Source: Cornus controversa (Eukaryota > Streptophyta > Magnoliopsida > Cornales > Cornaceae). From it: a stretch of DNA of 64,000 nucleotides. Of this stretch, positions 1,564 to 64,000 are shown one piece after another. How positions within the stretch are numbered: the stretch's first letter is position 1; every line of letters begins with the position of its first letter. Location: assembly GCA_026545225.1 (NCBI GenBank), contig CM048848.1, positions 19,880,806 to 19,944,805 on the forward strand, written 5' to 3'. Under the pieces are notes generated by a model. That model had not been told where the DNA came from. It saw nothing but the letters and a program-made list of their open reading frames with translations, and did not search any database. Made by a program: the position numbers and the translations under genes.

Positions 1564-3975
1564 CATATTGAGAATTAGCACTAAAACCTTGAGGGTCATT
1601 TTTGGAATTTCACTAAGTAAGGCCTTGTTTGGCTGAATGATATTATTTATATGTTCATTACATGAGTATTAATTTAGCTACAATGCATTTTTAAATTTAG
1701 TTCAATACGTATTCGTAATGTACACACTAACAGCCTATTTAAGGCCTTGTTTGGCATTAAGTGTGTGAGCAATTGGATAGGGAGCTCCAGCTGAGTGACA
1801 AGTGTCCTTGTGAGGCTGCAAGTGCTCCAAATGTCTAGAATGATCTACTGATGTAGAAGATACCATAGTGCCCTCAGCTGTCCTTACATTAATATACAAG
1901 AATATGGAATATTCAATGGGGAGCCTTGCCATTTCAAGGAAGAGCCAATGATTGGCCATTTTTGAAATCAGCAAAAGGACAAGTTGGCAGCTGTCAACCT
2001 TATCCTCTCACGGCCGTTTGAATGGCTCCTATGAAGCTATATGTATAGCTCTGTCCATGCAGCTGTGTGTGCTTCAAGTGAGAGAAAAAGTGAGAAATTA
2101 ATAGAAAAGGAGCAACACCATTTGAGAAGATAGTGAAAGCTTAAATGTACGAATTCTAGACAGCTTCAAGCCTAACATTTGAGCCCAGAAATTGCTTCAA
2201 CTGAGGTCAGTTGAGGAGCACAAACTGTAGCTGACTCTGCTGGTTTCATGGATGTCTTTGAAGATCTTTGAGCTTATGTCCTGATTCATTAAATCACTGT
2301 GAGTATTTTCTTTGGCTTTATGAATTTAAATTAGGCAAGATTAAATCTGTTATGATACATTAAGATCATCCTAAGTTGAGATATGCAGCCACAGCCTTAT
2401 TATGCTTTCTATATACTGAACTTCAATCTAAATGTACTGTTCATATCTGCTTAATTCAAGGTTAAACTGCTATTTTTATATGAGCTAAAGGTTTGCATCC
2501 ATCATTGATTTCAACAAGTGTGTTTTGTTGATTTATATTAACAAACTTAGTTTTAAGATGAATATGAGCCTGCACACATGTCTTGGCATTCAAACCTCTA
2601 TTTTGAGCTGTTAGTTACTGTTAAAATGTTTATTAGAGGTCTGGTTCATCATTGCCCAATCTGAGATGTATTCTTGATGATTACAACATGCTACATCTGA
2701 TATATTGAGTATTTTCCATCTCATATTCACTAAAATCCATGACCACACCACTGACAAGCTTACCTAACGATTGCTGCTGCATTGTTCACTAATAGAAATG
2801 ACCACAACCACTGTCAGGTTACTCTAATTAGCTTCTGGACTAACATGGGTGATTTAGGCAAGTTTCAAACATCATGTATGATCTGTTGAACATTTGCTTG
2901 AAGGTAGTTTAAGGCTGTGACTGAAATTGATATTCTTTCTGCTAAGTTACTGTTCATTGCTGATATAATTTCTTGTTACTGTCAACCATATAAAAAAGGA
3001 AGCAAATATGTTTCATTTGATTTCTACACTAATATGAGCTATCTTAGCAAGTGTAAAATGTATTTTATGACCAGTTAATGCTAGCTAAAAGTATGATTTA
3101 AAGGCTGCATTATTTTCTGTTCATCAGCATCACAACCCTTGCACTATATTTGCTGTCCAAAGATTCTGATTTTGTCAAAAATGATTATGCTAATAGTTGA
3201 TTTGTCTCTATCAAGTCTAACAAGTGTAACTCTTCATATTTAGTCTGTTTGTGCTTGTTGGAGGATGGTTTTGTAGCATCATTGAATTTTGACCTCTTGA
3301 TACCTGATTTCGTATATTATAATTGCTTTCATCCATTTCAAGAAAAGGCATATCTTATTATCTTGGTTCTGACTGCTATTAGAACACAAGCAAGGATATA
3401 TGATCTTTATAAGGTGTTTGTGAAGCGTTTAAGGCAGCTCCTATCTCTGCATCTATATCTACACCTCAGAAAACTGAATTCCAAATTTTGAATTCCACAT
3501 TGCTGAATACTTAATTCCAAATTTTGAATTCCATATTGCTAAAAGCTGAATTCTGAATTTTGAATTCCATATTGCTGAAAACTGAATTCCAAATTTTGAA
3601 TTCCACATTGCTGAATACTGAATTCTACATTGCTGAATACTGAATTCTGATTTTTGGATTCCATATTGCTGAATGCTGAGTTGTGATTTTTTGAACTCTA
3701 TATTTGCTGAAAATCCATGCGGACTTTGGTTTCTTTGAGTGAATATTGATTTACTTCCATGCTTTATATTTGTTCTACTCTAGCTATATTCTTGTCAATA
3801 TTAAGAACAGGTACAATGCCTAAAATATCATAAAAAGCTTTTAAAGAGAATATACTATGCTAAACGGAAGTCTAAATGGCTGAAAAAGGGGTTTCATTGA
3901 AAGAGCAGGCTTCTACAGCTTACCTGTAGCTACACTCAAGGGTGTACATATTGAAGCCTATCACTGCTGGAGTTC
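1564..3975. repeat. Dispersed block A, copy A1
   Basis: First copy of a roughly 2.4-kb repeat found again at 10,246-13,435 plus 17,290-17,562 and at 22,563-24,593. It starts near CATATTGAGAATTAGCAC, carries two direct copies of AAGGCCTTGTTTGGC (near 1,619 and 1,740) and ends after a GAATTC-rich minisatellite. A1 alone keeps about 180 bases at roughly 2,180-2,350 that are absent from the other two copies. There are no transposase or polymerase motifs, so the class is unknown; a non-autonomous mobile element is possible. Confidence 0.8.
3468..3700. repeat. GAATTC-rich minisatellite, array 1
   Basis: Six to seven imperfect units of about 36-38 bases, each with the pattern GAATTCCAAATTTTGAATTC followed by CA(C/T)ATTGCTGAATACT. 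Units differ by point changes and small gaps. Arrays at 13,166-13,435 and 24,301-24,517 sit at the same place in the other A copies. Confidence 0.85.
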
Positions 3976-12451: not shown

Positions 12452-12788
12452 GAAAATCGAGTTCATAAAATGAGTTTTTCTCTTTTCCCAACAACTGTCC
12501 CACCAGGAACAGGAACAGCAGTAACTTATCCCCTTGTTGGTTGTTGCAGTCCAGGCCAAGTTTCCTTATCCCGAAGGCATCTTCAAATGTGGATTGAATT
12601 GTCTCCAAAAGTAGTTCCCATGATGCTCAAACAGGCCCTCAAAGCTAGCCACGTGGCTAAACCATCAGCGTCAACTAAGAATCCTAGTAAAAACAAGCCC
12701 TCTCCCCTTTTGGATGAATGCGGTGGATGTTTCGAATCAAAGAGTTTGATTACATGTATTATGTTATGTGATGGGGTCTTGCAATGAA
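12452..12788 (+). other. Unrecognised insert with a 105-codon open frame
   Basis: Compared with the other A copies, these bases replace an 8-base GCTAGCTA stretch. An ATG-started frame at 12,470-12,787 gives 105 residues beginning MSFSLFPTTVPPGTGTAVTY, with Cys near both ends. Base composition is more gene-like than the flanks. I do not recognise the protein and see no domain; it may be a captured gene piece. Confidence 0.35.
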
Positions 12789-13165: not shown

Positions 13166-13435
13166 CTGAAAACTGAATTCCAAATTTTGAATTCCACAAT
13201 GCTGAATACTGAATTCCAAATTTTGAATTCCACATTGCTGAATACGGAATTGCAAATTTTGAATTCCACATTTCTGAATACTGAATTGCAAATTTGAATT
13301 CCACATTGCAGAATACTGAATTCCAAATTTTGAATTCCATATTGCTAAAAACTGAATTCTGAATTCCACATTGCTCAATACTGAATTCTGATTTTTGGAT
13401 TCCATATTGCTGAGTTCTGATTTTATGAACTCTAT
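13166..13435. repeat. GAATTC-rich minisatellite, array 2
   Basis: About seven units of the same 36-38-base repeat as at 3,468. The transposon inserted just beyond its last unit, in GAACTCTAT. Confidence 0.85.
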
Positions 13436-13475
13436 GGGCCTGTTTAGTTGGCCAGTTTTGATATTGTTTTTGTGT
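13436..13475 (+). repeat. Left terminal inverted repeat
   Basis: Begins GGGCCTGTTTAGTTGGCCAG and continues through TTTTGATATTGTTTTTGTG. It pairs with the complement of 17,247-17,286 apart from several mismatches and one single-base gap. A subterminal AACATGTTTGGCA lies at 13,500-13,512. Confidence 0.8.
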
Positions 13476-13784
13476 TATGATTTCAATTTTTTAGCCCAAA
13501 ACATGTTTGGCAAGTCTTGATTTGGTTTGAAAAGTTTAAAAACGGTATCAATTTGGGCCCAAAATCAGTAACAGAAAATTGGTGATATTGTTATGTTTTG
13601 TAATTTTTCTGGCCCAATTCTATAACAGGCACTATAGCAGCCGAAACAATATCCTCATAGTCGCATCACATATAAAAACCAAAACTGAAAACACTTTGGT
13701 CATTTTTGACCTAAATTTCTCTCTCCTCGCTCTGGCGATTTAAGGGCGATTTGTGTCGGAAGCCCTAGTTCTATTACATTTTCA

Positions 13785-13981
13785 GTAGGAAGACCAAGGT
13801 CTTGGGTATGGAGAGAACCACTTGCCATATGGTTTCATACGCAAGGTCTACGACATACTCTCCGCCCAGATCCTCCTCACCACCATCGTCTCCTCCGACA
13901 CTGTTCTCTACTCTCCCGTCAACGAACTCCTCAGAGGAAAACCTGGCCTTTTGCTCTTCTTCGCATTCTTACCCATTACAT
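13785..13981 (+). pseudogene. Captured LIFEGUARD (BAX inhibitor-1 family) exon
   Basis: The exon follows a TTTTCAG acceptor and ends at a GTGAGT donor. Its frame reads GYGENHLPYGFIRKVYDILS and continues with AQILLTTIVSSDTVLYS and NELLRGKPGLLLFFAFL, the N-terminal region and first membrane segment of plant LIFEGUARD proteins. These are multi-pass membrane proteins of the TMBIM family that restrain stress-induced cell death. Only this one exon is present, so no functional protein is expected. A TATA-like CATATAAAAACC lies upstream at 13,669-13,680. An overlapping frame starting at 13,802 is a shadow. Confidence 0.8.
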
Positions 13982-14772
13982 GTGAGTCCTAGATCTCAAC
14001 AATTATACATTTTGATATTCAAATTTCTTTACATATACGTGTGTATGTGTGACTTTCTTTCCGTCTTTTTCTATTTTCTATTGATGATCTACTTAATTGA
14101 TCATTTTCTTGAGGATTGTGAAGATTTTCTTGAATTTCAATTAGGGTTTGGCTCTGATTTGTGTTTAAGATGTGATCTTTTGGGTTTTGATTATTCTTTT
14201 TATTTATTTATTATTATACGTGTGTATACTGATTATTGGGTATGGGGTTGGTTGAACAAGGTATTACCTTACCCTGGCCAGTTGTGGTTTTAAAAGACAT
14301 GTAAGAGAGCCTGTTATATACTATGTGGGGATAGAGATAGATTGCCAGTGCAAACGTGTTAGAGAAGGAAAATTCTAGTAGGGGAATAAAAACTAAAATT
14401 CATGTGTTGCAATGCATATGCTATGTTCCATTTAGTTGAATTGTTCAGACATTTTTATTACCAGCTCTCTATCTTCTGTCAACAACTATAATCTTTAATT
14501 TGGACTAATTTGGTTGTGTGAATTTTCATTGTTGATCAACTAAGAGGCTGTTATATAATTTATGTTAACGAGACTATATTTTCCAATCTAAAGTAAATTT
14601 CTTTGGTGCTGCATTCTACCACTTTCCTCACTTCTTTGATGGGAATTGTTATTCTCAGTTACCAGTGACTTTTAATTGATGAAGGGGGCTAGGATGATAT
14701 GGCTAGCTGCATTGCAGAAGAAACGTGAAAATCATATTTGATAGAAAATTTGATCCTTATTCTTGAAGTAGG
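13982..14772 (+). other. Intron-like DNA inside the transposon
   Basis: T-rich sequence following the LIFEGUARD donor, consistent with carried intron sequence. No domain seen. Confidence 0.4.
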
Positions 14773-15327
14773 ATGGCAACTGAGTATGAGAATGGTGGAA
14801 GGCAGTGAAGCCAGAAAATGGTCCTTTTCCAAGGATATTACAACATTTGTATCACCATTGAATAACGCAGCAGAATATGAGTTGGGATTGCTTCTGAAAA
14901 GGCACAGATTTCACGTAGATCAACGAAACATGGTTCCAAATCGAAGCGGTAGTGCACCTTCAAGTATGGAGGGATCCTTTGCAGCTTTTGGGAACCTTAT
15001 GGTTCAACAGAACTATAGTTTGAGTTCAAGCTTATCAAGTTTAAATAGTGCTATTGAAAATTGTGAGTCTCAGAAACAACTGCGCTCTGATCTAGCCTAT
15101 TTTGCCTACTACTATGCAAATGTTAACTTGAACCCGAGGCTTCCTCCACCCACTATCTCAAGGGAGAATCAACACCTTGTATGCCAACTCATAATGAGGA
15201 GCCAGAGGGTGATAAGTCACCTCAGCAAGCTTCAAATGATTTGGAAGAAATTAGTAGTGCACTCATGTTCGGACAAAGTGCATCTTCTTTGGCAGGTTGT
15301 CATAAAAGTTTGGTTGATCTAATACAG
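14773..15327 (+). pseudogene. Captured Pumilio (PUF protein) N-terminal exon
   Basis: The frame includes YELGLLLKRHRFHVDQRNMV, PNRSGSAPSSMEGSFAAFGN, and RSDLAYFAYYYANVNLNPRL followed by PPP. This is the conserved N-terminal region of plant Pumilio RNA-binding proteins, which bind 3' UTRs through C-terminal PUF repeats not present here. An ATG at 14,773 lies in a different frame from the following codons, implying a small deletion near 14,785. After ISRENQHLV (about 15,180) the frame shifts again, and the later residues (EEISSALMFGQSASSLAG) are readable in another frame up to a GTACAA donor at 15,327. Broken and truncated. Confidence 0.85.
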
Positions 15328-16048
15328 GTACAAAACTTAAACTGAGTTGTCTATTCATTTTATCTTGAGATAGTGGCATCTTATTGTACCAAATTTGTGA
15401 ATGCTATTGATTGTACCATATTGTTCATCAAGGAAAGGTAAAAAGAGACCACTGCACTCTATTCTTGTAATGAATGAGATAATAACAAATTTAATCTAAG
15501 ATCAATGTGTAATTTCATGGATAAAAATATTACTTTTTGTTGAATCTGTTTGGAAACGTCCTACCTCCATAGAAAGGTAAGTTGGATTATTTTCCCACCG
15601 ATCAATGTTAATCTTTGGGGAATCGTTATGAATTTAAGTCTACTATATGGTGCATATAAAAGATGATCCTGATGTATGATACAAATTTAGTAAGGTTCGG
15701 TGTTTAGTTTTTCTTTTTGTGAATAATATATTACATGTACAGAGTCTCATGAACCTAATATTAGGTCTTGCTTCAAGTTCTATGGCATTGAGATGTTAGC
15801 TTTATAGTGTATGATTCCATGATGCAACCCTTTCCTGATTTAAGTTCTCTGGAAATAATGGAGCCTAATGAAAATTGATTTGATGGGAAAAAAAGTTAGT
15901 TTATCAGGGATGTTAAGATGATCCACTATTATTGGTGTGAATGTGCTTGGGAGAATGCACAAGGGGCATAGCATTACATTGCTCATGAAAACTACTTTTT
16001 TATAGCATATTAATTTCTTTCACCTAATGTCTAACTTTCATTGCTCAG
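15328..16048 (+). other. Intron-like DNA inside the transposon
   Basis: Begins with a GT after the Pumilio exon and ends with TTGCTCAG before the next exon. It may join two introns of different origin. No coding motif. Confidence 0.4.
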
Positions 16049-16175
16049 AAATGCTGCATTTTCCACAAAGAAAAGCCCTTTGACGAGGACGACATCGACT
16101 ATGATGACTGAAAAGACAAAGATCCGTCCAAGAAGGATCATAATCATGGTGATTGGTCGTTGTTCGAGGATTGAT
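16049..16175 (+). pseudogene. Captured type-1 phosphatase inhibitor (Ypi1/PPP1R11-like) last exon
   Basis: After an AG acceptor the frame reads KCCIFHKEKPFDEDDIDYDD then stop TGA (16,109-16,111), and a further acidic and lysine-rich stretch runs to a second TGA at 16,172. The CCIFHK-KPFDEDD motif is the hallmark of Ypi1/inhibitor-3 proteins, small nuclear regulators of protein phosphatase 1. The upstream part with the phosphatase-docking region is absent. About 150 bases after the stop may be its 3' UTR. Confidence 0.85.
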
Positions 16176-17246
16176 GAAGTTGCAAGCACGAGTCATTCTT
16201 GATTTATTGGCTTCATTCTTGTAAAATACTTGGAAATTACTAGAATTGGATTTCTCGGAGCTTGATTTTTCTGGTGTTGTATATTGTTGGAATTGTTATT
16301 GCGTTTTAGATATAAGAAATGAATTGGAAATTTATTATTCAATTGAGAGGATATGTTTTGTGTTCAATTGTTTATTGGCTATGATTTGAATCTGATTATG
16401 GGGTTCTAATTTCATATCTTTACAGAGTTTGTCAATTTGGCTTTTGCTATTAGTTTGGGTATATAGTCCATTTCGTTTGATTATGATAATTTCTAAACAC
16501 ATGGTTTTGTTAACAGTTGTAGGATGTTGATGATCTTCACTTATTATTATTATTTTTTTGGATTTGTTGTTTTGGAAGGTAACGATTTGATTCATAAATT
16601 CTCTGTTATTTTGATTGAATTGTCTTGCTTTGCAACTTTGGCGAGAAGGGCGTCTGTTAAAGTTTTATCCCCTGTTTAAATATTTTCTTTCATTTGATTT
16701 CGTGGAGGTACTTTTCTGTGATGAAGATTATCTCCCTAGAATCTTTTAGAACAAAACAAGCTTCTTTTAGTGAGTTTGATTGGGCTGGCCTTGCTTGTGA
16801 TTAACGAAGTTGGTAAAATACTCTATATAAAGAAACATTATTTATATCATTCTCGTGGGTTCTTATTGAGTGACAAATTCACTAGACACTGTTTTTCGGT
16901 GAGTTTGATTTTACTAATTTCAAGCATATGATTCTCATGAAAAAGTTTAGCACAACTATTTCTTTTTTGTATGAGAATGATCTTTAAGTTTCGCTTGGGA
17001 TGTTTGTTATGTTACTTATTCTTTTCAAGCTTCAATTTGTGGTTCAAATTTTTTTGGAAACAATTGGAGCTACCAAACGTGTTTTCAGTGTTTTGGTTTC
17101 AAATTTTTTATAACGCATTGACGTTACCAAACATGTTAGGCATTTTCTGTTTTTGTAAATCATTAAACACAACAATGTTACCAAACACGTTGTCAATTAA
17201 TATTCAAAACATTAAAATAACACAACACATGTTATGTTATTTGCTA
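16176..17246. other. Transposon right part with subterminal repeats
   Basis: No gene recognised. From 17,071 there are three spaced copies of TACCAAAC(A/G)(C/T)GTT (17,071, 17,125, 17,179), inverted relative to AACATGTTTGGCA near the left end. Subterminal inverted motifs of this kind are typical transposase-binding sites. Confidence 0.55.
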
Positions 17247-17286
17247 AAACAAAAACCAATATCAAAACACCTATCCAAACGGGCCC
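17247..17286 (-). repeat. Right terminal inverted repeat
   Basis: Ends CCTATCCAAACGGGCCC, followed by the TAT target duplication at 17,287-17,289. It includes CAATATCAAAAC, the complement of GTTTTGATATTG at the left end. Confidence 0.8.
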
Positions 17287-17289
17287 TAT

Positions 17290-22562: not shown

Positions 22563-24593
22563 CTCATATTGAGAATTAGCACTAAAACCCCTTCGAGGGT
22601 CATTTTTGGAATTTCACTAAGTAAGGCCTTGTTTGGCTGAATGATATTATTTATATGTTCATTACATGAGTATTAATTTAGCTACAATGCATTTTTAAAT
22701 TTAGTTCAATACGTATTCGTAATGTACACACTAACAGCCTATTTAAGGCCTTGTTTGGCAGTAAGTGTGTGAGCAATTGGATAGGGAGCTCCAGCTGAGT
22801 GACAAGTGTCCTTGTGAGGCTGCAAGTGCTCCAAATGTCTAGAATGATCTACTGATGTAGAAGATACCATAGTGCCCTCAGCTGTCCTTACATTAATATA
22901 CAAGAATATGGAATATTCTATGGGAGCCTTGCCATTTCAAGGAAGAGCCAATGATTGGCCATTTTTGAAATCAGCAAAAGGACAAGTTGGCAGCTGTCAA
23001 CCTTATCCTCTCACAGCCGTTTGAATGGCTCCTACGCAGCTATATGTACAGCTCTGTCCATTGCAGCCGTGTGAGCTTCAAGTGAGAGAAAAAGTGAGAA
23101 ACTAACAGAAAAGGAGCAGCACCATTTGAGAAGACAGAGAGAGCTTAAATGTACGAATTCTTGACAGCTTCAAGCCTAACATTTCAGTTATGATACATTA
23201 AGTTCATCCTAAGTTGAGATATGCAGCCACAGCCTTATTGAGCTTTCTATATACTGAACTTCAGTCTAAATGTACTGTTCATATCTGCTTAATTCAAGGT
23301 TAAACTGCTATTTTTATATGAGCTAAAGGTTTGCATCCATCTTTGATTGCAACAAATGTGTTTGGTTGATTTATATTAACAAACTCAGTTTTAAGATGAA
23401 TATGAGCCTGCACACATTTCTTGGCTTTCAAACCTCTAGTTTGAGCCGTTAGTTACTGTTAAAATGTTTCTTAGAGGTCTGGTTCATCATTGCCCAATCT
23501 GAAATGTATTATTGATGATTACAACATGCTACATCTGATATATTGAGTATTTTCCATCTCATATTCACTAAAATCCATGACCACACCACTGACAAGCTTA
23601 CCTAACGGTTGCTGCTGCATTGTTCACTAATAGAAATGACCACAACCACTGTCAGGTTACTCTAATTAGCTTCTGGACTAACATGGGTGATTTAGGCAAG
23701 TTTCAAACATTATGTATGATCTGTTGGACATTTGCTTGAAGGTAGTTTAAGGCTGTGACGACTGAAATTGATATTCTTTCTGCTAAGTTACTGTTCATTG
23801 CTGATATAATTTCTTGTTACTGTCAACCATATAAAAAAGGAAGCAAATCTGTTTCATTTGATTTCTACACTAATATGAGCTATCTTAGCAAGTGTAAAAT
23901 ATATTTTATGACCAGTAAATGCTAGCTAAAAGTAGGATTTAAAGGCTGCAATATTTTCCGTTCATCAGCATCACAAACTATATTTGCTGTTCAAAGATTC
24001 TGATTTTGTGAAAAATGATTATGCTAATAGTTGATTTGTCTCTATCAAGTCTAACAAGTGTAATTCTTCATATTTAGTCTGTTTGTGCTTGTCGGAGGAT
24101 GGTTTTGTAGCATCCTCGAATTTTGACTTCTTCAAACCTGATTTTGTATATTATGATTGCTTTCATCCATTTCAAGAAAAGGCATATCTTATTATCTTGG
24201 TTTCTGACTGCTATTAGAATACAAGCAAGGATACATGATCTTTATAAGGTGTTTGTGAAGTGTTTAAGGCAGCTCCTATCTCTGCATCTATACCTGCACC
24301 TCTGAAAACAGAATTCCAAATTTTGAATTCCACATTGCTGAATACTAATTCCAAATTTTGAATTCCATATTGCTAAAAGCTGAATTCTGAATTTTGAATT
24401 CCATATTGCTGAAAACTGAATTCCAAATTTTGAATTACACATTGCTGAATACTGTATTCTGATTTTTGGATTCCATATTGCTGAATGCTGAGTTCTGATT
24501 TTCTGAACTCTATATTTGCTGAAAATGCATGCTGACTTTGGTTTCTTTGAGTGCAAATTGCTTTACTTGCATGCTTTATTTTTATGCTACTAA
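22563..24593. repeat. Dispersed block A, copy A3
   Basis: Near-identical to A2 in its first part and uninterrupted at the transposon target (GAACTCTATATTTGC at 24,506-24,520). It ends at TTATGCTACTAAA (24,583-24,595), where block B4 begins. Confidence 0.8.
24301..24517. repeat. GAATTC-rich minisatellite, array 3
   Basis: About six units; same organisation as arrays 1 and 2. Confidence 0.85.
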
Positions 24594-43381: not shown

Positions 43382-44497
43382 AATTTCACTATTATAGAGG
43401 TAAAATTATCATTGAAAGCGGTGAAAATTGACACAAGGGGAAAAAGTTATTGAAAATGATTTTGATTTAAATTTATAAGATAATATTACATAGGACTCAC
43501 TATTATTATGTCTATATACTATTATTTTATTCACATTGTTTAATTGGTCTCTTTTAAAATATAAAAAAATTGTGCATAATTGGTCTATTTTATGAACTTG
43601 AGCAGAATTTATTTATTTATTTTTATGACCTTGAGCCGAATTTATTATTATTATTATTTTCAAAGATAAGCAAGTTTACTCTTATAGAAGTAATAATGGT
43701 TCTATGCATATGAGAATTGTTGATTAGAGACTTGTATTAATTTGTTTATGATTTTTTTTTTTTTTTTGGTGTAGAATTTTCAGTCATATATTTTCTACAT
43801 GTTTTGCCTTTCAAAGAATGTCATTATTGGCCGTAGCGCTTGTATTACTCATGAGACCTGGGGTATGTGAAATCTAAATTTCTGTTTCGGAGAAGTTTAA
43901 ATTGATACGACCAATGGGCATTTGCCCAGATGGGTCGTTCCTTTGGGAGGGGATATCCTACCATTTGGGCAAATGCCCATTGGTCGTATCAATTTAAACT
44001 TCTCCGAAACAAAAATTTAGATTTCACATACCCCAGGTCTCATGAGTAATACAAGCGCTACATGTTTTGAAAGGCAAAACATGTAGAAAATATATGACTG
44101 AAAATTCTACACCAAAAAAAAAAATCATAAACAAATTAATACAAGTCTCTAATCAACAATTCTCATTTGCATAGAACCATTATTATTTCTATAAGAGTAA
44201 ACTTGCTTATCTTTGAAAATAATAATAATAATAATAAATTCGGCTCAAGTTCATAAAAATAAATAAATAAATTCTGCTCAAGTTCATAAAATAGACCAAT
44301 TATGCACAAACTTTTTTTATTTATTTTAAAAGAGACCAATTAAACAATGTGAATAAAAGAATAGTATATAGACATAAAAATAGTGAGTCCTACGTAATAT
44401 TATCTTATAAATTTAAATCAAAATCATTTTCAATAACTTTTTCTTCTTGTGTGAATTTTCACCGCTTTCAATGATATACCTCTATAATAGTGAAATT
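43382..44497. repeat. Long near-perfect inverted repeat (about 540-bp arms)
   Basis: The left arm 43,382-43,928 is the reverse complement of the right arm 43,966-44,497, with a 37-base spacer. Matching landmarks include TTTCACTATTATAGAGGTA/complement at the outer ends, a TTATTATTATTATT run, GTGTAGAATTTTCAGTC, and ACCAATGGGCATTTGCCCA next to the spacer. Differences are few: a poly-T length change, an insertion of about 12 bases near 43,825 in the left arm, and scattered substitutions. A transcript would form a long double-stranded hairpin. No target duplication seen. Could be a foldback/MITE element or a hairpin small-RNA locus. Confidence 0.92.
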
Positions 44498-54288: not shown

Positions 54289-54942
54289 ATATTAATTCAT
54301 TAGTCATTCAAAATACTGGGAAAATGTTTGGACCGGTGATAATGCCAGCTTTAGCAAGAAGTACTACAAGATAAATCAGGAAGAGGGAGAAGGGTGGGAG
54401 AGAGGCTTACCAAAAAAATAAAAAAGAAATGAATCAAAGAAAACCACCATGCACCTTGCAATTAAAACGAACAATCGTAAACTTTGCAAGTTGTTCATAG
54501 TTGTTTGTAATTTTAGAAAAAGAAAACATAGTTACAATCAAATTATATATGGCATAGCATGTTATGAATGCTGAATATAAGATTTGTGTTTGTAACTGAA
54601 AGCATTTTGCAAAAACTAGAAAGTTTTTCCAAATGGAGCAGCTACCCATCAAATTCCACAAGGATCCAACCCAACAAGGGATCTCTATAAAAAAAACTTG
54701 AGAATTATGGTATCTTTTTGGCTTTAGTTTTTTGAAGTAGGTATTTAAAATATTTGCGATAAACACAGATACAATCATTTTGGAAAGTTTTTTCAAATGG
54801 AGTTACGTAGCTAACCAACCATCAAACTTCACAAGGATATCCAAAAGCCCACAAGGGATTTTTATCAGACCAGTGTAAACTTTATATACATGCCTCCATG
54901 GTTTCTTGTTTATTCAAGTTTTTGTCTTGAAAAGAATAAAGT
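54289..54942 (-). other. Possible intron up to the retrotransposon
   Basis: AT-rich, with a diverged internal repeat of TCACAAGGAT(C)CAA and ATCAAA(T/C)TTC (54,648 and 54,823). Ends in AAAGT, the likely left target duplication of the retrotransposon. Confidence 0.4.
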
Positions 54943-55323
54943 TGTAAGGACCGTGACCATTTTTGGCCAGTTTTCTTGAATTTTCATTTAATCGTCATAT
55001 TAAGACATTAAATGATGGTATATGTGTTTTAAATGTAAAATGCATGTTTAGATAACTTATTTAAGGTTTGGAGAAGTTTTTGGAGCGTTTGACAAAAGTT
55101 GACTTTTTCGGGTCCGGTCAACCTAGGGGTGCGGGCCCCGTGGGCCCAGAAAATCCAAAAGTCTCGGAATGACCTCAAATTTTGAGGATAGCTTAAATAA
55201 AATATTTGACGCGCAACGGAATTGATTTCGTGTCAATCGGAGTTACGGAACTCCGAAAATGAGCCCGGGAAGGTTTAGTGAAAAGGTGATGGCATACTTG
55301 TAATTATGAGTAGGTCATTTAGG

Positions 55324-55332
55324 CTATAAATA
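55324..55332 (+). promoter_or_regulatory. LTR TATA box
   Basis: CTATAAATA within AGGCTATAAATAGCC, about 380 bases into the LTR. It is the best candidate RNA polymerase II start region, with transcription probably starting some 30 bases downstream. The same box is at 62,363-62,371. Confidence 0.7.
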
Positions 55333-56088
55333 GCCATGAGATCTCAGCCATTATCACTATCTTCTCCCAGCCGTGTAAGCATCTATACATATATATGCAT
55401 AGCTTCTTCATCTTCTTCCTTTCTTCATGAATTTTGAGGGGCTTCGGGTGAGAGTTTGATTTTGCCGAAGAAGGAAGAAATGATCTACGCATTGAGAGCT
55501 TGAGATTGATCGGTCCAAAATCATTTTTGGAGAAGGTTGATCTTTTGGGTGAGATTTGGGGGAATTCAATTGGAAGCTCTTCCAATTTGAGGTAGGGATG
55601 TTTAACTCATAAAATTCGGGATTCTTGTGAGTATATTGGTTGTCTATGACAACCAATTGGTTATGTGGAGTAAATAGATGTTCCTCAATGTTCAAGCATG
55701 TTATTTTATATCATTAAATGTGCTATAATGTTGGTTGATATGATGGTATGCTTATAAATGCCTTAGAGAAATTTATGAGCATGTTGGGGTTGATTTATGA
55801 ATTTATATTGGTGGATTCATGTATAATTGCGAGGGTGATTTCATGTGTTTGATAAATTGCTTTAAAAACATTGTGAAGGATGTGTGCTATGTGAAATGTA
55901 GAGGTGTGAAGCATGTTCATTGTAAATGCATATAATGCCTAAATGGGAGATTGTTTAAGTGTGATTGTTGGATGCCTTATTGGTTGCAAATTGTGAATGT
56001 ACATTTGATAAAATTGTGGGGTTCATTTTCATTGGCATGGTGAGGGAGGCAAGCAATGTGAACGGTGGAATCCATTCGGTAAAACGGC

Positions 56089-56212
56089 GAGGTATTCCGG
56101 TAAAGGTAACCCTCGTGAGGTATTCCGGTCAAGGTACCCTCATGGATTGATGTGTAGTGAGGTATTCCGGTAAAGGTAACCCTCAAGAGGTATTCCGGTA
56201 AAGGTAACCCTC
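56089..56212 (+). repeat. 26-bp tandem motif in the LTR
   Basis: Four copies of GAGGTATTCCGGTAAAGGTA followed by ACCCTC, at 56,089, 56,117, 56,159 and 56,187, with variable spacing. Mirrored in the 3' LTR at 63,128-63,251. Confidence 0.9.
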
Positions 56213-56994
56213 TATAGGTGGGATTGGTTGTCCATGGGGATTGGAGACCAATATGTGGGAAGGATGAGGGAGTCGTGCATATCATGTTGCATTCTACCTT
56301 GTTTGTGATATGGTTGTGTGTGTGCATGAATTTCCAATATGTTAAATGCAAAATGTATGGTTACGTGGTGCTCACGGAGTTGGTGGAATTATGTTTTAAA
56401 TGTTTCTACTGAGCTTGTGGTTGCTCATCCCATGTGGATTAATATTTTTCAGGAAATGGAAAGGAGGTGATGGAGACTCCCCAATAGTACATTGGCGTGG
56501 AGTGGTTTTGGTCATTTTAAAGACTTTATGTTGTTTTGTTGGAATGCATGTCCGGATTGTGGACCATATGCATGATATGAATATGTAAAGACCATTTGTT
56601 TTCCGAAAACATGTATTATTGGTGCTTTACGGTTTCATGCACTTAAATCTAAATTTTTGGTGTATGTGGTTTGTGACTTGTAATTTTGCACAATGTGTGT
56701 ATATGGAAAGAGAACTGTGTTAGCTTCGTTTTGATGGGTCATGGGCCATGTTTCGATTTATATTGAGAAAGATAGGCATGTTTGGTTGCAAGGGTGGAAA
56801 ACCTGACCTACACCCACTAAATTGAGTATAACTTGAGTTGTGGTTGGTATTTTTGAATGATTCAAATTGGGTTAGAAACTAGACATCTTGAGGATGATCC
56901 ATGTCAAATTTCAGGTCAAACGGGATTACGGATTGTGAGATATTAGCATTTGAAGTCAGGTTGAGGAGTGCTGTCAAAATTTCGGAACTGGTGC

Positions 56995-57195
56995 AGTTTG
57001 AGGTGGCTCAAAGTCCACTTTGAGGCGCCTGGAAAAGTTTGAGGCGGCTCAAAGTTGACTTTGAGGCGCCTGGAAATCTTTGAGACGCCTCAAAGTGGAG
57101 TTTGAGGCACCTCAAAGTGCATTTTTGATAACTTTGACCCTACTGGAAGTTCCAGGCGACTCAAACTCAGGTTTGAGGCGCCTCAAAGTCTTCAA
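56995..57195 (+). repeat. Palindromic TTTGAGGCGCCTCAAA cluster in the LTR
   Basis: About ten full or half copies of the palindrome core GAGGCGCCTC, embedded in TTTGAGGCGCCT(G/C)(G/A)AAA units. Half copies such as TTTGAGGCGGCTCAAAG and TTTGAGACGCCTCAAAG also occur. Neighbouring units can pair with each other. Confidence 0.88.
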
Positions 57196-57454
57196 AACCT
57201 TAGAAATGTGAATTGTTATGATTTTTCATGATCTAGGAGTGGAAATGGAATGCCATGGATGCATGGACCGATGTAGGGCCTATTGGGATGGATAGTGATG
57301 GGTATATGCATGGTTAATTACATGTGTATGATTAGCTTCCGCGATAATTAAGAGATATGAGGGGGTTCATTGGGGTTTAATGAACGGGTTCACACCCGGG
57401 ATTTGGGTTGGTCCGGGGGAGTCCCGGTGGTCCGGATTTTGGGGCGTGACAGAA

Positions 57455-57466
57455 TGGTATCAGAGC
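57455..57466 (+). other. Primer-binding site
   Basis: TGGTATCAGAGC, complementary to the 3' end of initiator methionine tRNA, three bases after the 5' LTR. It primes minus-strand DNA synthesis. Confidence 0.93.
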
Positions 57467-57827
57467 ACTAGGACGAATACCTAGGGGCGACGGGTAATAG
57501 ATGGGTCACTTGTAGTTTCATGATAGGTCTGAACTTCGAGTTTGTTAACCTAGAAACGTGTGTGGACTTGACATAGTTAATTAGAGAACTTATGTTTATG
57601 TGGAATGTGCTTACATGATAATATGTTAAGTGCTATGTGATAACATGTATTGTATGTTATTTGTTGAATTGAGAACATGTTTATGTAATTAAATGTGTTT
57701 TGTAAAGCATGTTTATATGTTACGTATACAATTGATAACATGTGATTATGTTGTGAAATGGTTGATCATGTTGAACACAAAACATGTGATAACTTGTTGT
57801 GTTGAATCATTTCTTGAATTGATAGAA
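57467..57827 (+). other. Retrotransposon leader
   Basis: Untranslated leader between primer site and the gag start. It is rich in ATGTT(A/T) and ACATGTGATAA(C/T) motifs. No gene. Confidence 0.6.
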
Positions 57828-58460
57828 ACATGCCACCTAGACGTCGTGGAGGAGGAGTTGGGGGTGAATGTTTGAAATTGAGTTAATTCCTTTAGATTTA
57901 ATGGACAAGTGATGGTTTGTATGTTTGAGAGGGATATAGTTAGGTTCTGATTGAACCTTAAGGTGTGAGGACAAGAGCGACATGTTGTCGGAGTTGGGCT
58001 AGTAAGGAAAAATGGCCCGGCCGGACATTTTTCTTTGATTAGCACTTCTCTTACAATGTGTTGGATCCAAGTAGTTATAGAGTTAACTCGTTGGGTATTG
58101 ACGAGTAAGGGACTGAGGTTAAAGTGTTTTGAATACAAAGGAGATTTTTTTTTTTTTGCCATGGGGTTAGAGGTGTCAACCTTGGATAGAGCTTTATGTA
58201 TTGATAGTCCATTTAGGGTGGAGTGACCCTAGAAGCGGAATGTTCGGGTTATATGAAATGAGTTGAAAGTTGTGTAATAAGTTTTGGATATAATTTTTAA
58301 CTAGTTCCTTGGAGTGGAAGGATGCAGCGAGACATGATTCTTTTCTCGGATAATTGGTGATGGAAATTAATTGGTTAATGAGATTGTGAAATCAGTGGGA
58401 TGTAAGATCCTAGACTTGGTGTTGGATTCCATCGGGTTATAGTCTACGGAACTGGGCATT
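57828..58460 (+). pseudogene. gag start remnant and first protease-like fragment
   Basis: ATGCCACCTAGACGTCGTGG at 57,831 encodes MPPRRRGGG, a typical gag start for this clade, but the frame ends within about 20 codons and the whole capsid and zinc-knuckle region is missing. At 58,155-58,225 the frame reads MGLEVSTLDRALCIDSPF, a protease-region segment that reappears in better form near 58,650-58,730. The sequence between is degenerate. Confidence 0.7.
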
Positions 58461-58462
58461 GT

Positions 58463-58590
58463 TATGTGGCTTGTTTTGGCAAGTGCACAGGATTTATGTG
58501 GCTTGCTTTGGCAAGTGCACTGTTTATGTGGCTTGTTTAGACAAGTGCACGGGATTTATGTGGTTTGTTTCGACAATTGCACTGAATTGT
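58463..58590 (+). repeat. Four-copy 30-32-bp tandem repeat in the gag-deletion zone
   Basis: Units ATGTGGCTTGTTTTGGCAAG plus TGCAC(A/G)GGATTT, with variants CTTTGGCAAG, TTAGACAAG and TTCGACAATTG. They separate the two protease fragments. Confidence 0.85.
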
Positions 58591-58639
58591 AGACTATGCC
58601 CAGGATGGTACGCCATTATTATAAATCATTTTTTTTTCA

Positions 58640-58989
58640 ATGGTGGATTGTGTGAACTTGGTAGTTGGTTTGGAAAGGATTTGGAAACCTTGGGTAGGGC
58701 AGTTTGTGTTGATACGCCTGTGGGCGGTACAGTGATCCTTGATAGGGTATGTCGGGGATGCGCTATTGAGATAGCCTGGAGGACACTTGAATTTGATTTC
58801 ATTCTCCTTGATATGAGTAGTTTTGATATCATCCTTGGGATGGATTGGTTGTCGGAGTTTCATGCGACCATTGATTGTTTTAGAGGGAGAGTGACGATTT
58901 GTACGCCCGAGGGCGATTACTTTTGTTTTATGGGAGATCGGAGTGACTTCTATGCTTCATCATGTTATGGCATTAGCAGTCGTGAGTGA
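58640..58989 (+). pseudogene. pol, protease end
   Basis: Reads LETLGRAVCVDTPVGGTVIL and FDFILLDMSSFDIILGMDWL, the conserved C-terminal flap and ILGMDWL motif of Ty3/gypsy aspartic proteases. The catalytic D(S/T)G end is not found, so the protease is incomplete. A TGA at 58,987-58,989 interrupts the frame, which otherwise continues directly into the reverse transcriptase frame. Confidence 0.82.
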
Positions 58990-60614
58990 CACAGTTTTAT
59001 CTTGGCTAGTCTTTTGGCCGAGGGGGAGGAGGTTCTGAAAGAGGTATATCCAGCAGTGGTGTGTGAATTTGTGGATGTCTTTCCAGAGGATTTGACAGAA
59101 TTACCTCCCAAGAGAGAGGTAGAGTTTGGTATTGATCTTATGCCCGGTATGGCGCCCATCTCTATGGCACCATATCGGATGGCACCGGCAGAGTTGGTAG
59201 AACTAAAATGCCAATTGGACGATTTGAAGGCTAAAGGCTTCATTAGACCGAGTGCATCACCGTGGGGAGCACCGGTGTTATTTGCTAAGAAGAAAGATGG
59301 TGCTTTGAGATTGTGCATTGATTACCAGAAGTTGAATCATGTGACAATCAAGAATAAGTATCCATTGCCGAGGATAGACGACCTATTCGATCAATTGAAG
59401 GGAGCTCACTACTTCTCAAAAATTGACTTAAGGTCGGGTTATTATCAATTGAGGATAAAGGAAGAGGATATTCATAAAATGGCTTTTCGTACGCGTTATG
59501 GACATTATGAATTCCTCGTAATGCCATTCGGTTTGACTAATGCACCGGCGGCATTTATGGACTTGATGAACCGCGCATTTCATGAGTACCTTGACACTTT
59601 TGTGGTAGTGTTTGTGGATGATATACTTGTGTACTCATCTTCGGAGGAAGAGCATGAGTTGCACTTGAGGATAGTTTTGCAGATCTTTAGAGAGCACCGA
59701 TTGTACGCTAAGTACGAAAAGTGCGAGTTTTGGCTCCAAGAGGTGAAATTCCTTGGGCATGTTGTTTCCGCAGGTGGAGTCTCAGTAGACCCATCTAAGA
59801 TTGAGGCCGTGATGAGTTGGGAGAGTCCGAAGAGTATCTTCGAGATTCGGAGTTTTCTTGGGTTGGCAGGCTACTATAGGAGGTTTGTGAAAGACTTCTC
59901 TAGTATTGCAGCACCTATGACACGACTTACTCGTAAAGGTGTGAAATTTGTGTGGAATGAAGCATGTGAGTTGGCTTTCCGTGAATTGAAGAAGCGGTTA
60001 ACTACAGCTCCTATTTTAGTGATACCCGAGCGTGGCTTGGGATATGTGATTTATTGTGATGCTTCGGGGAACGGACTGGGTTGTGTGCTGATGCAATGTG
60101 ATAGAGTAGTTGCTTACGGGTCTAGACAATTAAAGACTCATGAGCACAACTATCCTACACATGATCTGGAGTTAGCAGCGGTGATCTTCGCCTTGAAAGG
60201 GTGGAGACACTACTTGTATGGTGAGAAATTCGAGGTTTACTCGGATCACAAGAGTCTCAAGTACCTTTTCTCCCAAAAGGACTTGAACATGAGGCAGAGG
60301 AGATGGGTTGAGTACATGGAGGACTACAATTTTGATTTGCAATACCATCCGGGTAAAGCAAATGTGGTGGCAGATGCGTTGAGCAGAAAGTCTCATGGGA
60401 CTCTAGCTAGCATAGCCATTCGGGAGTGGAAAATGATAGAAGATTTCTCAGAGTTGGGATTATATTTCAGTGATGATAGTGAACCAGCTACGTTGTTTAG
60501 CTTGGTAGCACAACCAATGCTTGTGAGTAAGGTGATTGAGGCACAGAAGAAAGATAGTGAGTTAGAGTCTATTCACTCACAGATCGTTGGTGGTAGTACT
60601 GTAGCGGTTGGACC
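58990..60614 (+). pseudogene. pol, reverse transcriptase and RNase H
   Basis: A long open frame with the RT signature segments: [54 protein letters not shown] and the catalytic FVDDIL at 59,611-59,628. Connection [14 protein letters not shown] follows. RNase H shows its acidic residues in [30 protein letters not shown] and VADALSRK. These domains look chemically complete. The frame shifts by one position near 60,605-60,615, just before the integrase. Confidence 0.93.
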
Positions 60615-61004
60615 TTGCATTTCGATGGGGGTCTACGATTCAGAGGGTTGATGGCAGTTCTTTTGGATTGTCGTGATGATGTATTACGGGAATTACATCA
60701 TTCTCGTTTTGCAGTTCATCCTGGTGGTACCAAAATGTATCACAATGTGAGGTGCCAATATTGGTGGCGAGGTATGAAGAAAGATGTGGCACAGTTTGTA
60801 GCGAGATGTCTTACTTGTCAGCAAGTGAAGGCGGAACATCAAAGGCCGGCTGGATTGTTGCAACCATTGCCAGTGTCAGAATGGAAATGGGAACATATTA
60901 CCATGGATTTTGTTACGAGTCTTCCAAGATTGAACAAGGGCAATGATACAATTTGGGTTGTTGTGGATAGGTTGACCAAAACAGCTGCCTATGAGATTGA
61001 ATGA
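60615..61004 (+). pseudogene. pol, integrase N-terminal part
   Basis: Zinc-binding HHCC motif (HHSRFAVHPGGTKMYHNVRC with a later CLTC) and the first catalytic Asp in VVVDRLTKTA. Reading ends at TGA after AAYEIE, where a small deletion of a few codons with a frame change occurs near 60,990-61,000. Confidence 0.88.
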
Positions 61005-61947
61005 TGATGTGAGGAGGCTCAGTAAGCAGTATGTGGAGCAGATTGTGAGATTACATGGGGTTCCAGTATCCATTGTGTCGGATAGGGATCCACGGTTCAC
61101 TTCGAGATTTTGGCAGGGATTCCAGGCGGTGTTGGACACCGAGCTGCATTTTAGCACAGCATTCCATCCTCAGATTGACGGACAGTCGAAGCGTACTATA
61201 CAGATATTGGAGGATATGCTTCGTGCTTGTATACTTGATTTTGGTGGTGGTTGGGAGGACCATTTGCCACTTGTGGAGTTTGCTTATAATAACAGTTATC
61301 AGGCTAGTATTGAGATGACACCATTTGAGGCATTATATGGCAGACCTTGTAGATCTCCAGTTTGTTGGACTGAGGTGGGCGAGACCGCAGCCTTAGGACC
61401 AGACATTGTGCAAGAGACTACTGAGAAGATTAAATTGATTAGACAGCGATTGTTGACAGCTCAGAGTCGACAAAAGAGCTATGCCGATCGGAGGAGGAGA
61501 CCATTATCCTTTGAGGTGGGAGACCATGTGTTCCTAAAAGTTTCACCACGGAAAGGATTGATGCGCTTTGGGCGGAGTGGCAAGTTGTCACCAAGGTATA
61601 TTGGACCCTTTGAGATCCTTGAGTGTGTCAGTGTGGTGGCCTACAGGTTGGCCTTGCCGCCACAGTTGGAGAAGGTTCACAATGTGTTCCATGTTTCGAT
61701 GTTGAGGAAATACGAACCTGATCCATCACATGTTCTAAGTTGGGTAGACGTTGAGGTCGACGAGGATGTCACCTACAAGGAGAGACCGATACAGATTCTT
61801 GATGCTAGGGAGCAAGTTCTGAGGGGAAAGACCATTCCCTTAGTCAAGGTATTGTGGCATCATCACAATGTTGAGGAGGCTACGTGGGAACGGGAGCAGG
61901 AAGTGCGTTCTAAGTATCCTGACTTGTTTTCTCCAGGTGTGTTCTGA
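60991..61947 (+). pseudogene. pol, integrase C-terminal part and chromodomain
   Basis: Contains the second catalytic Asp (VSIVSDRDPRFTSRFW) and the Glu (SKRTIQILEDMLRA), then EFAYNNSYQASIEMTPFEAL, the GPFEILE and HNVFHVSMLRKY C-terminal module. A chromodomain follows at about 61,770-61,947 (IQILDAREQVLRGKTIPLVK, VLWHHHNVEEATWERE). Chromodomains of this clade help steer integration to marked chromatin. The frame is open to the natural stop. Confidence 0.9.
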
Positions 61948-61950
61948 TTT

Positions 61951-61981
61951 CGGGGACGAAATCCTTTTAAGTTGGGTAGGT
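61951..61981 (+). other. Polypurine tract region
   Basis: CGGGGACGAAATCCTTTTAAG followed by a G/A-rich GTTGGGTAGG immediately before the 3' LTR. This primes plus-strand synthesis. The tract is interrupted by T residues and so looks weak. Confidence 0.7.
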
Positions 61982-64000
61982 TGTAAGGACCGTGACCATT
62001 TTTGGCCGGTTTTCTTGAATTTTCATTTAATCGTCATATTAAGACATTAAATGATGGTATATGTGTTTTAAATGTAAAATGCATGTTTAGATAACTTATT
62101 TAAGGTTTGGAGAAGTTTTTGGAGCGTTTGACAAAAGTTGACTTTTTCGGGTCCGGTCAACCTAGGGGTGCGGGCCCCGTGGGCCCAGAAAATCCAAAAG
62201 TCTCGGAATGACCTCAAATTTTGAGGATAGCTTAAATAAAATATTTGACGCGCAACGGAATTGATTTCGTGTCAATCGGAGTTACGGAACTCCGAAAATG
62301 AGCCCGGGAAGGTTTAGTGAAAAGGTGATGGCATACTTGTAATTATGAGTAGGTCATTTAGGCTATAAATAGCCATGAGATCTCAGCCATTATCACTATC
62401 TTCTCCCAGCCGTGTAAGCATCTATACATATATATGCATAGCTTCTTCATCTTCTTCCTTTCTTCATGAATTTTGAGGGGCTTCGGGTGAGAGTTTGATT
62501 TTGCCGAAGAAGGAAGAAATGATCTACGCATTGAGAGCTTGAGATTGATCGGTCCAAAATCATTTTTGGAGAAGGTTGATCTTTTGGGTGAGATTTGGGG
62601 GAATTCAATTGGAAGCTCTTCCAATTTGAGGTAGGGATGTTTAACTCATAAAATTCGGGATTCTTGTGAGTATATTGGTTGTCTATGACAACCAATTGGT
62701 TATGTGGAGTAAATAGATGTTCCTCAATGTTCAAGCATGTTATTTTATATCATTAAATGTGCTATAATGTTGGTTGATATGATGGTATGCTTATAAATGC
62801 CTTAGAGAAATTTATGAGCATGTTGGGGTTGATTTATGAATTTATATTGGTGGATTCATGTATAATTGCGAGGGTGATTTCATGTGTTTGATAAATTGCT
62901 TTAAAAACATTGTGAAGGATGTGTGCTATGTGAAATGTAGAGGTGTGAAGCATGTTCATTGTAAATGCATATAATGCCTAAATGGGAGATTGTTTAAGTG
63001 TGATTGTTGGATGCCTTATTGGTTGCAAATTGTGAATGTACATTTGATAAAATTGTGGGGTTCATTTTCATTGGCATGGTGAGGGAGGCAAGCAATGTGA
63101 ACGGTGGAATCCATTCGGTAAAACGGCGAGGTATTCCGGTAAAGGTAACCCTCGTGAGGTATTCCGGTCAAGGTACCCTCATGGATTGATGTGTAGTGAG
63201 GTATTCCGGTAAAGGTAACCCTCAAGAGGTATTCCGGTAAAGGTAACCCTCTATAGGTGGGATTGGTTGTCCATGGGGATTGGAGACCAATATGTGGGAA
63301 GGATGAGGGAGTCGTGCATATCATGTTGCATTCTACCTTGTTTGTGATATGGTTGTGTGTGTGCATGAATTTCCAATATGTTAAATGCAAAATGTATGGT
63401 TACGTGGTGCTCACGGAGTTGGTGGAATTATGTTTTAAATGTTTCTACTGAGCTTGTGGTTGCTCATCCCATGTGGATTAATATTTTTCAGGAAATGGAA
63501 AGGAGGTGATGGAGACTCCCCAATAGTACATTGGCGTGGAGTGGTTTTGGTCATTTTAAAGACTTTATGTTGTTTTGTTGGAATGCATGTCCGGATTGTG
63601 GACCATATGCATGATATGAATATGTAAAGACCATTTGTTTTCCGAAAACATGTATTATTGGTGCTTTACGGTTTCATGCACTTAAATCTAAATTTTTGGT
63701 GTATGTGGTTTGTGACTTGTAATTTTGCACAATGTGTGTATATGGAAAGAGAACTGTGTTAGCTTCGTTTTGATGGGTCATGGGCCATGTTTCGATTTAT
63801 ATTGAGAAAGATAGGCATGTTTGGTTGCAAGGGTGGAAAACCTGACCTACACCCACTAAATTGAGTATAACTTGAGTTGTGGTTGGTATTTTTGAATGAT
63901 TCAAATTGGGTTAGAAACTAGACATCTTGAGGATGATCCATGTCAAATTTCAGGTCAAACGGGATTACGGATTGTGAGATATTAGCATTTGAAGTCAGGT
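61982..64000 (+). repeat. 3' LTR, cut by window end
   Basis: The first 2,019 bases of the 3' LTR, matching 54,943-56,961. The only difference I noticed is G at 62,008 for A at 54,969. The expected end near 64,490 and the right target duplication lie outside. Confidence 0.92.

Follow-up and report, generated by a model that had tools for sequence, protein, structure and literature searches.

A gene-capturing inverted-repeat transposon of Cornus controversa, most likely a Pack-PIF, with cargo resembling four host genes

How does a single transposon come to hold pieces of several unrelated host genes, all facing the same way? The question is raised by a 3,851-bp element (here called W) at positions 13436-17286 of the window, the 64,000-nucleotide stretch of Cornus controversa contig CM048848.1 that was analyzed (assembly GCA_026545225.1, positions 19,880,806 to 19,944,805). 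The answer in which we place good confidence is that W is a gene-capturing, non-autonomous transposon of the terminal inverted repeat (TIR) type, most likely a Pack-PIF, apparently made by fusing two smaller elements that were already loaded and now carrying a cargo that seems to be in decay. How such elements acquire genes remains under debate, with fusion of neighboring elements set against template switching in repair. Here the composite, arrangements like those of both its parents, source-like genes and two elements inserted side by side all occur in one assembly, which makes the order of events datable and testable.

The assembly comprises 771.7 Mb in 61 contigs, designated by C-numbers, with the window on C4; L-numbers designate stretches fetched from it. 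A 601-bp query at the left end of W gave at least 40 matches in this genome (40 of 175 candidates scored), and a query with the whole element gave at least 58 (40 of 554 candidates scored). Long stretches were taken from 31 of the 40 left-end places, the window's own place and eight others (including a fourth C4 copy) being excluded.

Ends, insertion site and captured pieces

W opens with GGGCCTGTTTAG (at greater length GGGCCTGTTTAGTTGG...) and closes with the inverted terminus GGGCCCGTTTGG (GGGCCCGTTTGGATAG...). The two ends agree at 10 of their 12 outer bases and at 27 of 42 ungapped bases, a score attained by 9 of 3,000,000 random end pairs taken from the same window at spacings of 0.5-10 kb. 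The trinucleotide TAT stands on each side. Two paralogous segments of the window lack the element, and both read GAACTC-TAT-ATTTGCT; written out, the empty sites are GAACTCTATATTTGCT and the occupied site is GAACTCTAT-element-TATATTTGCT. Since the empty sites hold one TAT, they settle the boundaries and the 3-bp duplication from within the window, with no need of outside data. Many relatives with the same ends (GGGYCTGTTTGGTTGG...) lie in the home genome, and W combines the features by which Pack-TYPE elements are recognized: TIRs with a duplication, similarity to host genes elsewhere, no transposase of its own in a Pfam scan of limited reach, and several related copies.

Four pieces of host DNA lie between these ends (Table 1), and source-like genes for all of them are present in the same genome, on C5 (L021), C1 (L047), C7 (L048) and C10 (L051). 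Judged by similarity to these genes, the cargo is a copy of chromosomal DNA, introns included. The Lifeguard piece lies inside the span from exon 1 to intron 1 of the gene at C5:28.567 Mb, whose start codon was left uncaptured. The remaining Lifeguard exons are found in L021, the last of them matching Bax1-I at E=1.5e-18; the window piece alone reaches E=0.0033, under the curated cut-off. A second copy of Lifeguard exon 1 occurs on C4 (L022:1651-1905); past the end of the exon, its sequence is unrelated.

The next piece matches a gene at C1:93.818 Mb in its three blocks, flanking introns included. We take it to be Pumilio from its likeness to plant Pumilio N-termini, as did an earlier reading of the bare sequence (the original prediction), and the name lacks profile support: Pfam gave no match for this piece in W, for its counterpart in L013 or for two frames of L047. 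The exon's counterpart in L047 is an uninterrupted frame of 218 codons. In the window the exon retains its acceptor region and splice donor and has a frameshift near its start, and the copy in W is short by 54 bp relative to L011 (60 bp relative to L013).

The fourth piece, which had previously gone unnoticed, resembles intron sequence from a homeodomain gene at C7:57.674 Mb. The exon adjoining this intron in L048 matches Homeodomain at E=4.9e-4, its 20.3 bits falling short of the cut-off (22.9); the gene is presumably HAT3.1-like. In W the intron piece is followed by the phosphatase-inhibitor piece, whose source-like gene at C10:37.70 Mb is one uninterrupted frame with a protein that matches PPI_Ypi1 at E=4.6e-17; the window piece alone reaches E=3.2e-4, again under the curated cut-off. 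Searches of PDB with the inhibitor and Lifeguard pieces gave no match up to E=10. Because the inhibitor match of W starts in mid-frame of the intronless L051, the CAG at 16046-16048 does not represent a retained splice acceptor. We read this apparent acceptor as an accident of the joint, where a pyrimidine-rich intron of the homeodomain gene would have met an AG of inhibitor coding DNA. That an apparently kept splice site can arise in this way calls for caution when such elements are annotated as genes.

Much of the original prediction is borne out by these results. The TIRs, the TAT duplication, the two empty sites and the sister copies agree with its gene-capturing TIR element at 13436-17286, and the absence of other copies of the ends, which it had named as a sign against itself, did not occur. 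The unrelated host origins that it assigned to its three fragments correspond to separate source-like genes (L021, L047 and L051), the fragments share one orientation as proposed, and their coordinates were right to within a few bases. All three fragments are present, while the piece at 15710-16042 escaped it. Its statement that splice signals were kept stands for the Lifeguard and Pumilio donors and the Pumilio acceptor region and fails for the acceptor of the inhibitor.

Table 1. Positions of W, its parts and the empty sites within the window
Feature	Positions	Strand	Basis
Left target site duplication, TAT	13433..13435	.	single TAT in two empty-site paralogs
Left end: TIR and subterminal region common to relatives	13436..13792	+	similar left ends at many places, many starting at element base 1
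Lifeguard/BI-1 piece: exon 1 minus first codons (13793-13981), donor GTGAGT at 13982, 236 bp of intron 1	13793..14217	+	89% to L021, intron included
13-bp stretch separating Lifeguard and Pumilio pieces	14218..14230	.	
Pumilio-like piece: 5' intron, exon ~14769/14772-15327 (frameshift, internal deletion), donor GTACAA at 15328, part of next intron	14231..15716	+	three 83-95% blocks to L047
Part of homeodomain-gene intron; short T-rich overlap with Pumilio piece at joint	15710..16042	+	92% to L048
Type-1 phosphatase inhibitor (PPI_Ypi1 family) piece: 3' coding part with premature stop, 3' flank	16043..16307	+	81-82% to L051
Inner sequence partly common to some relatives (L049, L050, L020x)	16308..17035	+	comparison with relatives
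Right end: subterminal repeats, two TGTTTGGTAAC motifs (17120, 17174), TIR	17036..17286	-	comparison with relatives, motif scan
Right target site duplication, TAT	17287..17289	.	empty-site comparison
Empty site, paralogous segment A	3699..3701	.	self-comparison
Empty site, paralogous segment C	24511..24513	.	self-comparison

Assembly of the composite

All four pieces stand together in W, L009, L010 and L011 and, by match positions, also in copies on C5 and C7. Three further copies lie on C4 itself (at 19.865, 18.22 and 18.18 Mb); as each of them is matched end to end by the 601-bp query, 36 bp of which are left flank, they share W's insertion, and two of them (L009 and L010) show W's TAT and an identical 15 bp on each side. 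On C1, L011 is flanked by a TTA/TTA duplication and is 94% identical to W, with all of the cargo. The C5 copy (L014x) is the same composite with its right end lost. In the C7 copy (L012) later insertions have broken the composite, leaving a worn left end and a right half traced from match positions only.

Other relatives hold parts of the load, cargo having been mapped within the stretches fetched. Lifeguard alone of the four pieces is found in L015, L016, L019, L024 and L028; Lifeguard with Pumilio in L013, between two ends, and in L012 as far as fetched; Lifeguard, Pumilio and the homeodomain intron in L014 as far as cut; the homeodomain intron and the inhibitor, without Lifeguard or Pumilio, in L049; and Pumilio and the inhibitor in L020x. 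In L052 the left end of the family runs directly into inhibitor DNA (957 bp).

L013 and L049 bear on the joint between the Pumilio and homeodomain pieces. Similarity to the Pumilio source ends at 2220 and that to the homeodomain source begins at 1695 in W, L009, L011 and L014, with a T-rich stretch in common. L013 (on C4 at 59.37 Mb, with a TAT/TAT duplication) continues to position 2457 of the Pumilio source, 237 bp beyond this joint, before passing into the right end, and L049 begins at position 1666 of the homeodomain source, 29 bp more than the four-part joint includes. Given these extra bases, neither arrangement is obtainable from the four-part element by deletion alone. The homeodomain/inhibitor joint of L049 is also that of W, L009, L010 and L011, and L049 has a left-end remnant of its own.

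From these alignments, the simplest reading is one fusion of an L013-like and an L049-like element. The first parent would have consisted of a left end, Lifeguard, Pumilio and a right end, and the second of a left end, the homeodomain intron, the inhibitor and a right end; the two would have fused once at the T-rich microhomology around 15710-15716. The composite moves as a unit, presumably through cut-and-paste transposition by a PIF transposase and its Myb/SANT partner supplied by another element; it now lies at four unrelated places (C4, C1, C5 and C7), and on C4 it was copied again by segmental duplication. Catoni and colleagues have a model, described in PMC8903248, in which neighboring insertions fuse, and L050 provides an example of the neighborhood that such a model expects, two TIR elements lying side by side (L050:11-1360) with ATA before, between and after them. 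The second of the pair also holds part of the DNA found 3' of the inhibitor piece.

Serial capture is a possible though doubtful alternative, in which pieces were added one after another within one lineage by template switching during gap repair, with L013 and L049 as side branches. It would account for the short stretches of T-rich microhomology, or in one case the 13-bp filler, at the joints, much as microhomology at capture joints is reported for animal Pack-TIRs (PMC8277862), and several relatives keep the left end and Lifeguard with other sequence further in, so that inner parts do get replaced. It is harder to reconcile with the source DNA that L013 and L049 each hold past the joint of W, or with an L049 that combines its own left-end remnant with W's homeodomain/inhibitor joint.

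Several observations weigh against the explanation set out above. L049 lacks a left TIR and surpasses the joint by a mere 29 bp, while L013 includes some 420 bp of additional inserted sequence and shares 82% identity with W, where L011 shares 94%; with the parents seen only as decayed relatives, loss followed by regain through ectopic repair is possible. The left flanks of W and L009 are identical at 599 of 600 bases, whereas the right flanks match poorly past the insertion (965 of 1,239 bases, 1,500 bp having been taken), from which the duplicated C4 block appears to be a mosaic. The sources, moreover, are named by 81-95% similarity, and the true donors may be paralogs of the genes identified here.

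Beyond the composite, further relatives have in common with it 200-300 bp at the left and 230-250 bp at the right, and differ in their insides. L025, L026 and L038 are about 3.4 kb long and mutually 93-95% alike. L043 and L044 share 99.35% identity over 4.3 kb and occupy separate sites, one duplication being TAT and the other TTT, which points to recent movement. With the balance about even, it may hold for the family as a whole that its 3-bp target preference is A/T-only and not strictly TTA/TAA, and that it grows mainly by fusing or swapping modules of loaded elements between fixed ends, not by gene-by-gene capture, relatives of both fusion parents persisting.

Some of these relatives contain gene-like frames of other kinds. 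A RING-H2 frame lies inside L026 (zf-RING_2, 1.5e-14), and other such frames occur inside or downstream of L016, L017, L018 and L023. The aldo/keto-reductase-like stretch in L016 is a weak match, under the cut-off at E=0.051.

Superfamily and known systems

Target site duplications were counted in 15 two-ended insertions, namely W and 14 relatives, with L014x (right end lost) and L009 and L010 (W's own insertion) excluded. An exact 3-bp duplication is present in 12 of the 15, composed of A and T only: TAT in three, TAA in three, TTA in one, ATA in two, TTT in two and AAA in one. Such a match would arise by chance with a probability of about 0.019 per insertion. MULE duplications measure about 9 bp, and the original prediction had taken the 3-bp duplication to point away from Pack-MULEs, as the count now does. 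A Pack-MULE identity was rejected on the 3-bp duplication and the differing ends. CACTA elements begin with CACTA or CACTG; the ends of W do not begin CACTA, and this identity was likewise rejected, the duplication also counting against it. The CACTA ends given in PMC8903248 are CACTACAA, with a duplication of 5 nt.

A 3-bp duplication together with GGGCCYGTTTGG ends indicates PIF/Harbinger, of which W is likely a member and hence a Pack-PIF. In AndroPIF of melon the SANT1 protein is reported to bind AGGGCCCGTTTGGTAACGTT, which is partly the AndroPIF TIR (PMC11161486). The right end of W reproduces 12 contiguous letters of this motif, the left end is GGGCCTGTTTAG, and the TIR is of the GGGYCYGTTTGG type. 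Within the 64-kb window, the positions that come within two mismatches of the motif's inner 14 letters, in a post hoc test, are 17120 and 17174, both inside the right end of W. The letters of the TIR are also close to those of the Medicago family MtPH-E, reported as GGGCCTGTTTGR (PMC2213677).

It is improbable that W belongs to another TIR superfamily with 3-bp duplications, undescribed or CACTA-like (CACTA-like duplications being 3 bp long), and that its ends resemble those of PIF by chance. Such an origin would sit well with duplications that are A/T-only and in the minority TTA/TAA (4 of the 12 exact ones, against five TAT/ATA and three TTT/AAA, that of W being TAT), a pattern that also tells against a strict PIF assignment. 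So do the three of 15 insertions whose duplications, as cut, are inexact (L025, L026 and L045, of which L045 matches after a one-base shift of its right end) and a Pfam scan of W in all six frames (E up to 5), which revealed no transposase and which missed the Lifeguard piece as well. The 12 contiguous AndroPIF letters, the clustering of both near-motif stretches of the window in the right end, the occurrence of TTA and TAA among the duplications and the absence of CACTA from the termini argue for PIF instead.

Elements of this kind are already known; what is unusual here is that the assembly of one of them is legible stepwise from relatives in the same genome. The original prediction spoke of a less described Pack family, which is true in relative terms, and capture by PIF elements was reported for grapevine in 2008 (PMC2528002) and Pack-PIFs for rice and maize in 2022, when Pack-TYPE elements were also reported to draw on more than one locus (Gisby and Catoni 2022, PMC8903248). 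Like the Pack-PIFs of those two cereals, W is non-autonomous, has PIF-type ends and 3-bp duplications, carries host gene fragments and can be placed in a fusion model. It differs in drawing on four sources within 3.85 kb, whereas one maize cluster is reported with fragments of two genes; in the A/T-only duplications of its family, with TTA/TAA in 4 of 12 against reported shares of 52.4% in rice and 81.2% in maize (PMC8903248); and in belonging to another plant genome.

Pifvine-3 of grapevine is similar in that captured exons and introns are sometimes common to several copies, and unlike W in that these are long forms of elements with ORF1 and a transposase, no transposase having been seen in W (Benjak et al. 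2008, PMC2528002). AndroPIF shares the TIR motif GGGCCCGTTTGG followed by a GTTTGGTAAC-type motif, as found in the right end of W; it encodes its own two proteins, and its comparison with W is by motif alone (PMC11161486). With Pack-MULEs and Pack-CACTAs W has in common a gene-fragment cargo taken up as DNA, and it differs from them in its ends and its shorter duplication. The Pack-TIRs that resemble W in their capture joints come from animals, and the word Harbinger is missing from the main text of their description (PMC8277862).

Coding potential, decay and the surrounding window

The captured pieces look like decaying passengers and, on the evidence of the frames and substitutions, probably not like parts of a working chimeric gene. 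That a read-through transcript could join cell-death, RNA-binding and phosphatase-regulator sequence had been suggested in the original prediction, and here it was not supported. In none of the three splice forms modeled for W does an ATG frame run through the Lifeguard, Pumilio and inhibitor pieces together. The longest ATG frame in these forms (178 aa) lies wholly within the Pumilio exon; frames that join pieces are one of 69 aa from Pumilio into the inhibitor and one of 78 aa, in which Pumilio is skipped and out-of-frame Lifeguard DNA precedes the inhibitor; and a frame of 61 aa stops just beyond the joint.

Nor are the exons of W nearer to the sources than its introns: identities are 171 of 186 in exon against 215 of 234 in intron for Lifeguard, and 520 of 558 against 293 of 307 for Pumilio. 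Between W and L011, the Lifeguard exon (175 of 189) falls below its intron (228 of 235). Changes from source to copy of the C-to-T and G-to-A kind outnumber the reverse in 12 of 14 comparisons, whose rows are not independent and have source changes mixed in, the exceptions being the Lifeguard intron of W and that of L011; this excess fits the decay of methylated DNA.

Two results run counter to simple decay. Between W and L011 the Pumilio exon (526 of 559), unlike the other pieces, is slightly better conserved than the stretch that follows it (626 of 672). The 17 differences between the Lifeguard exon and its source fall 1, 6 and 10 at codon positions 1, 2 and 3, a skew that can be explained by constraint in the source lineage and that leaves the absence of constraint in W unproven.

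A chimeric gene in the making, with W transcribed and its pieces spliced into a functional mixed mRNA, is very unlikely, although the pieces are co-oriented, both donors (Lifeguard and Pumilio) are retained along with an acceptor-like AG ahead of Pumilio, the Pumilio exon shows the slight conservation just described, and captured fragments can be transcribed (PMC13317346). Besides the missing three-piece frame and exons that are no nearer to the sources than the introns, a frameshift, the 54-bp deletion and a premature stop stand against it. An ordinary three-exon host gene with inverted ends by chance, for which the exon-like pieces in series might speak, was rejected and has next to no probability in view of the empty sites, the other insertions and the separate sources on C1, C5, C7 and C10; one ordinary gene order free of the inverted ends, which the original prediction had set as a counter-sign, did not turn up.

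The segments that supply the empty sites belong to an array at 1-25194 of the window, made of diverged units with F-box-like frames (a label read from the open reading frames) that are pairwise about 77-99% identical. About seven 36-bp tandem units at 13166-13420 adjoin the insertion site. Some 330 bp at 12457-12788 are missing from two paralogous segments and resemble filler DNA; that they form a related miniature inverted-repeat transposable element was considered and rejected, inverted ends not being seen.

Farther along the window, about 1.1 kb at 43382-44497 is 91% identical to its own reverse complement, a long palindrome. The stretch 54941-64000 holds a Ty3/gypsy-type retrotransposon (labeled from the frames at 58990-61947) with direct repeats at 54941-56961 and 61980-64000, the second extending to the window end; these are 99.95% identical over 2,021 bp, which suggests a recent insertion.

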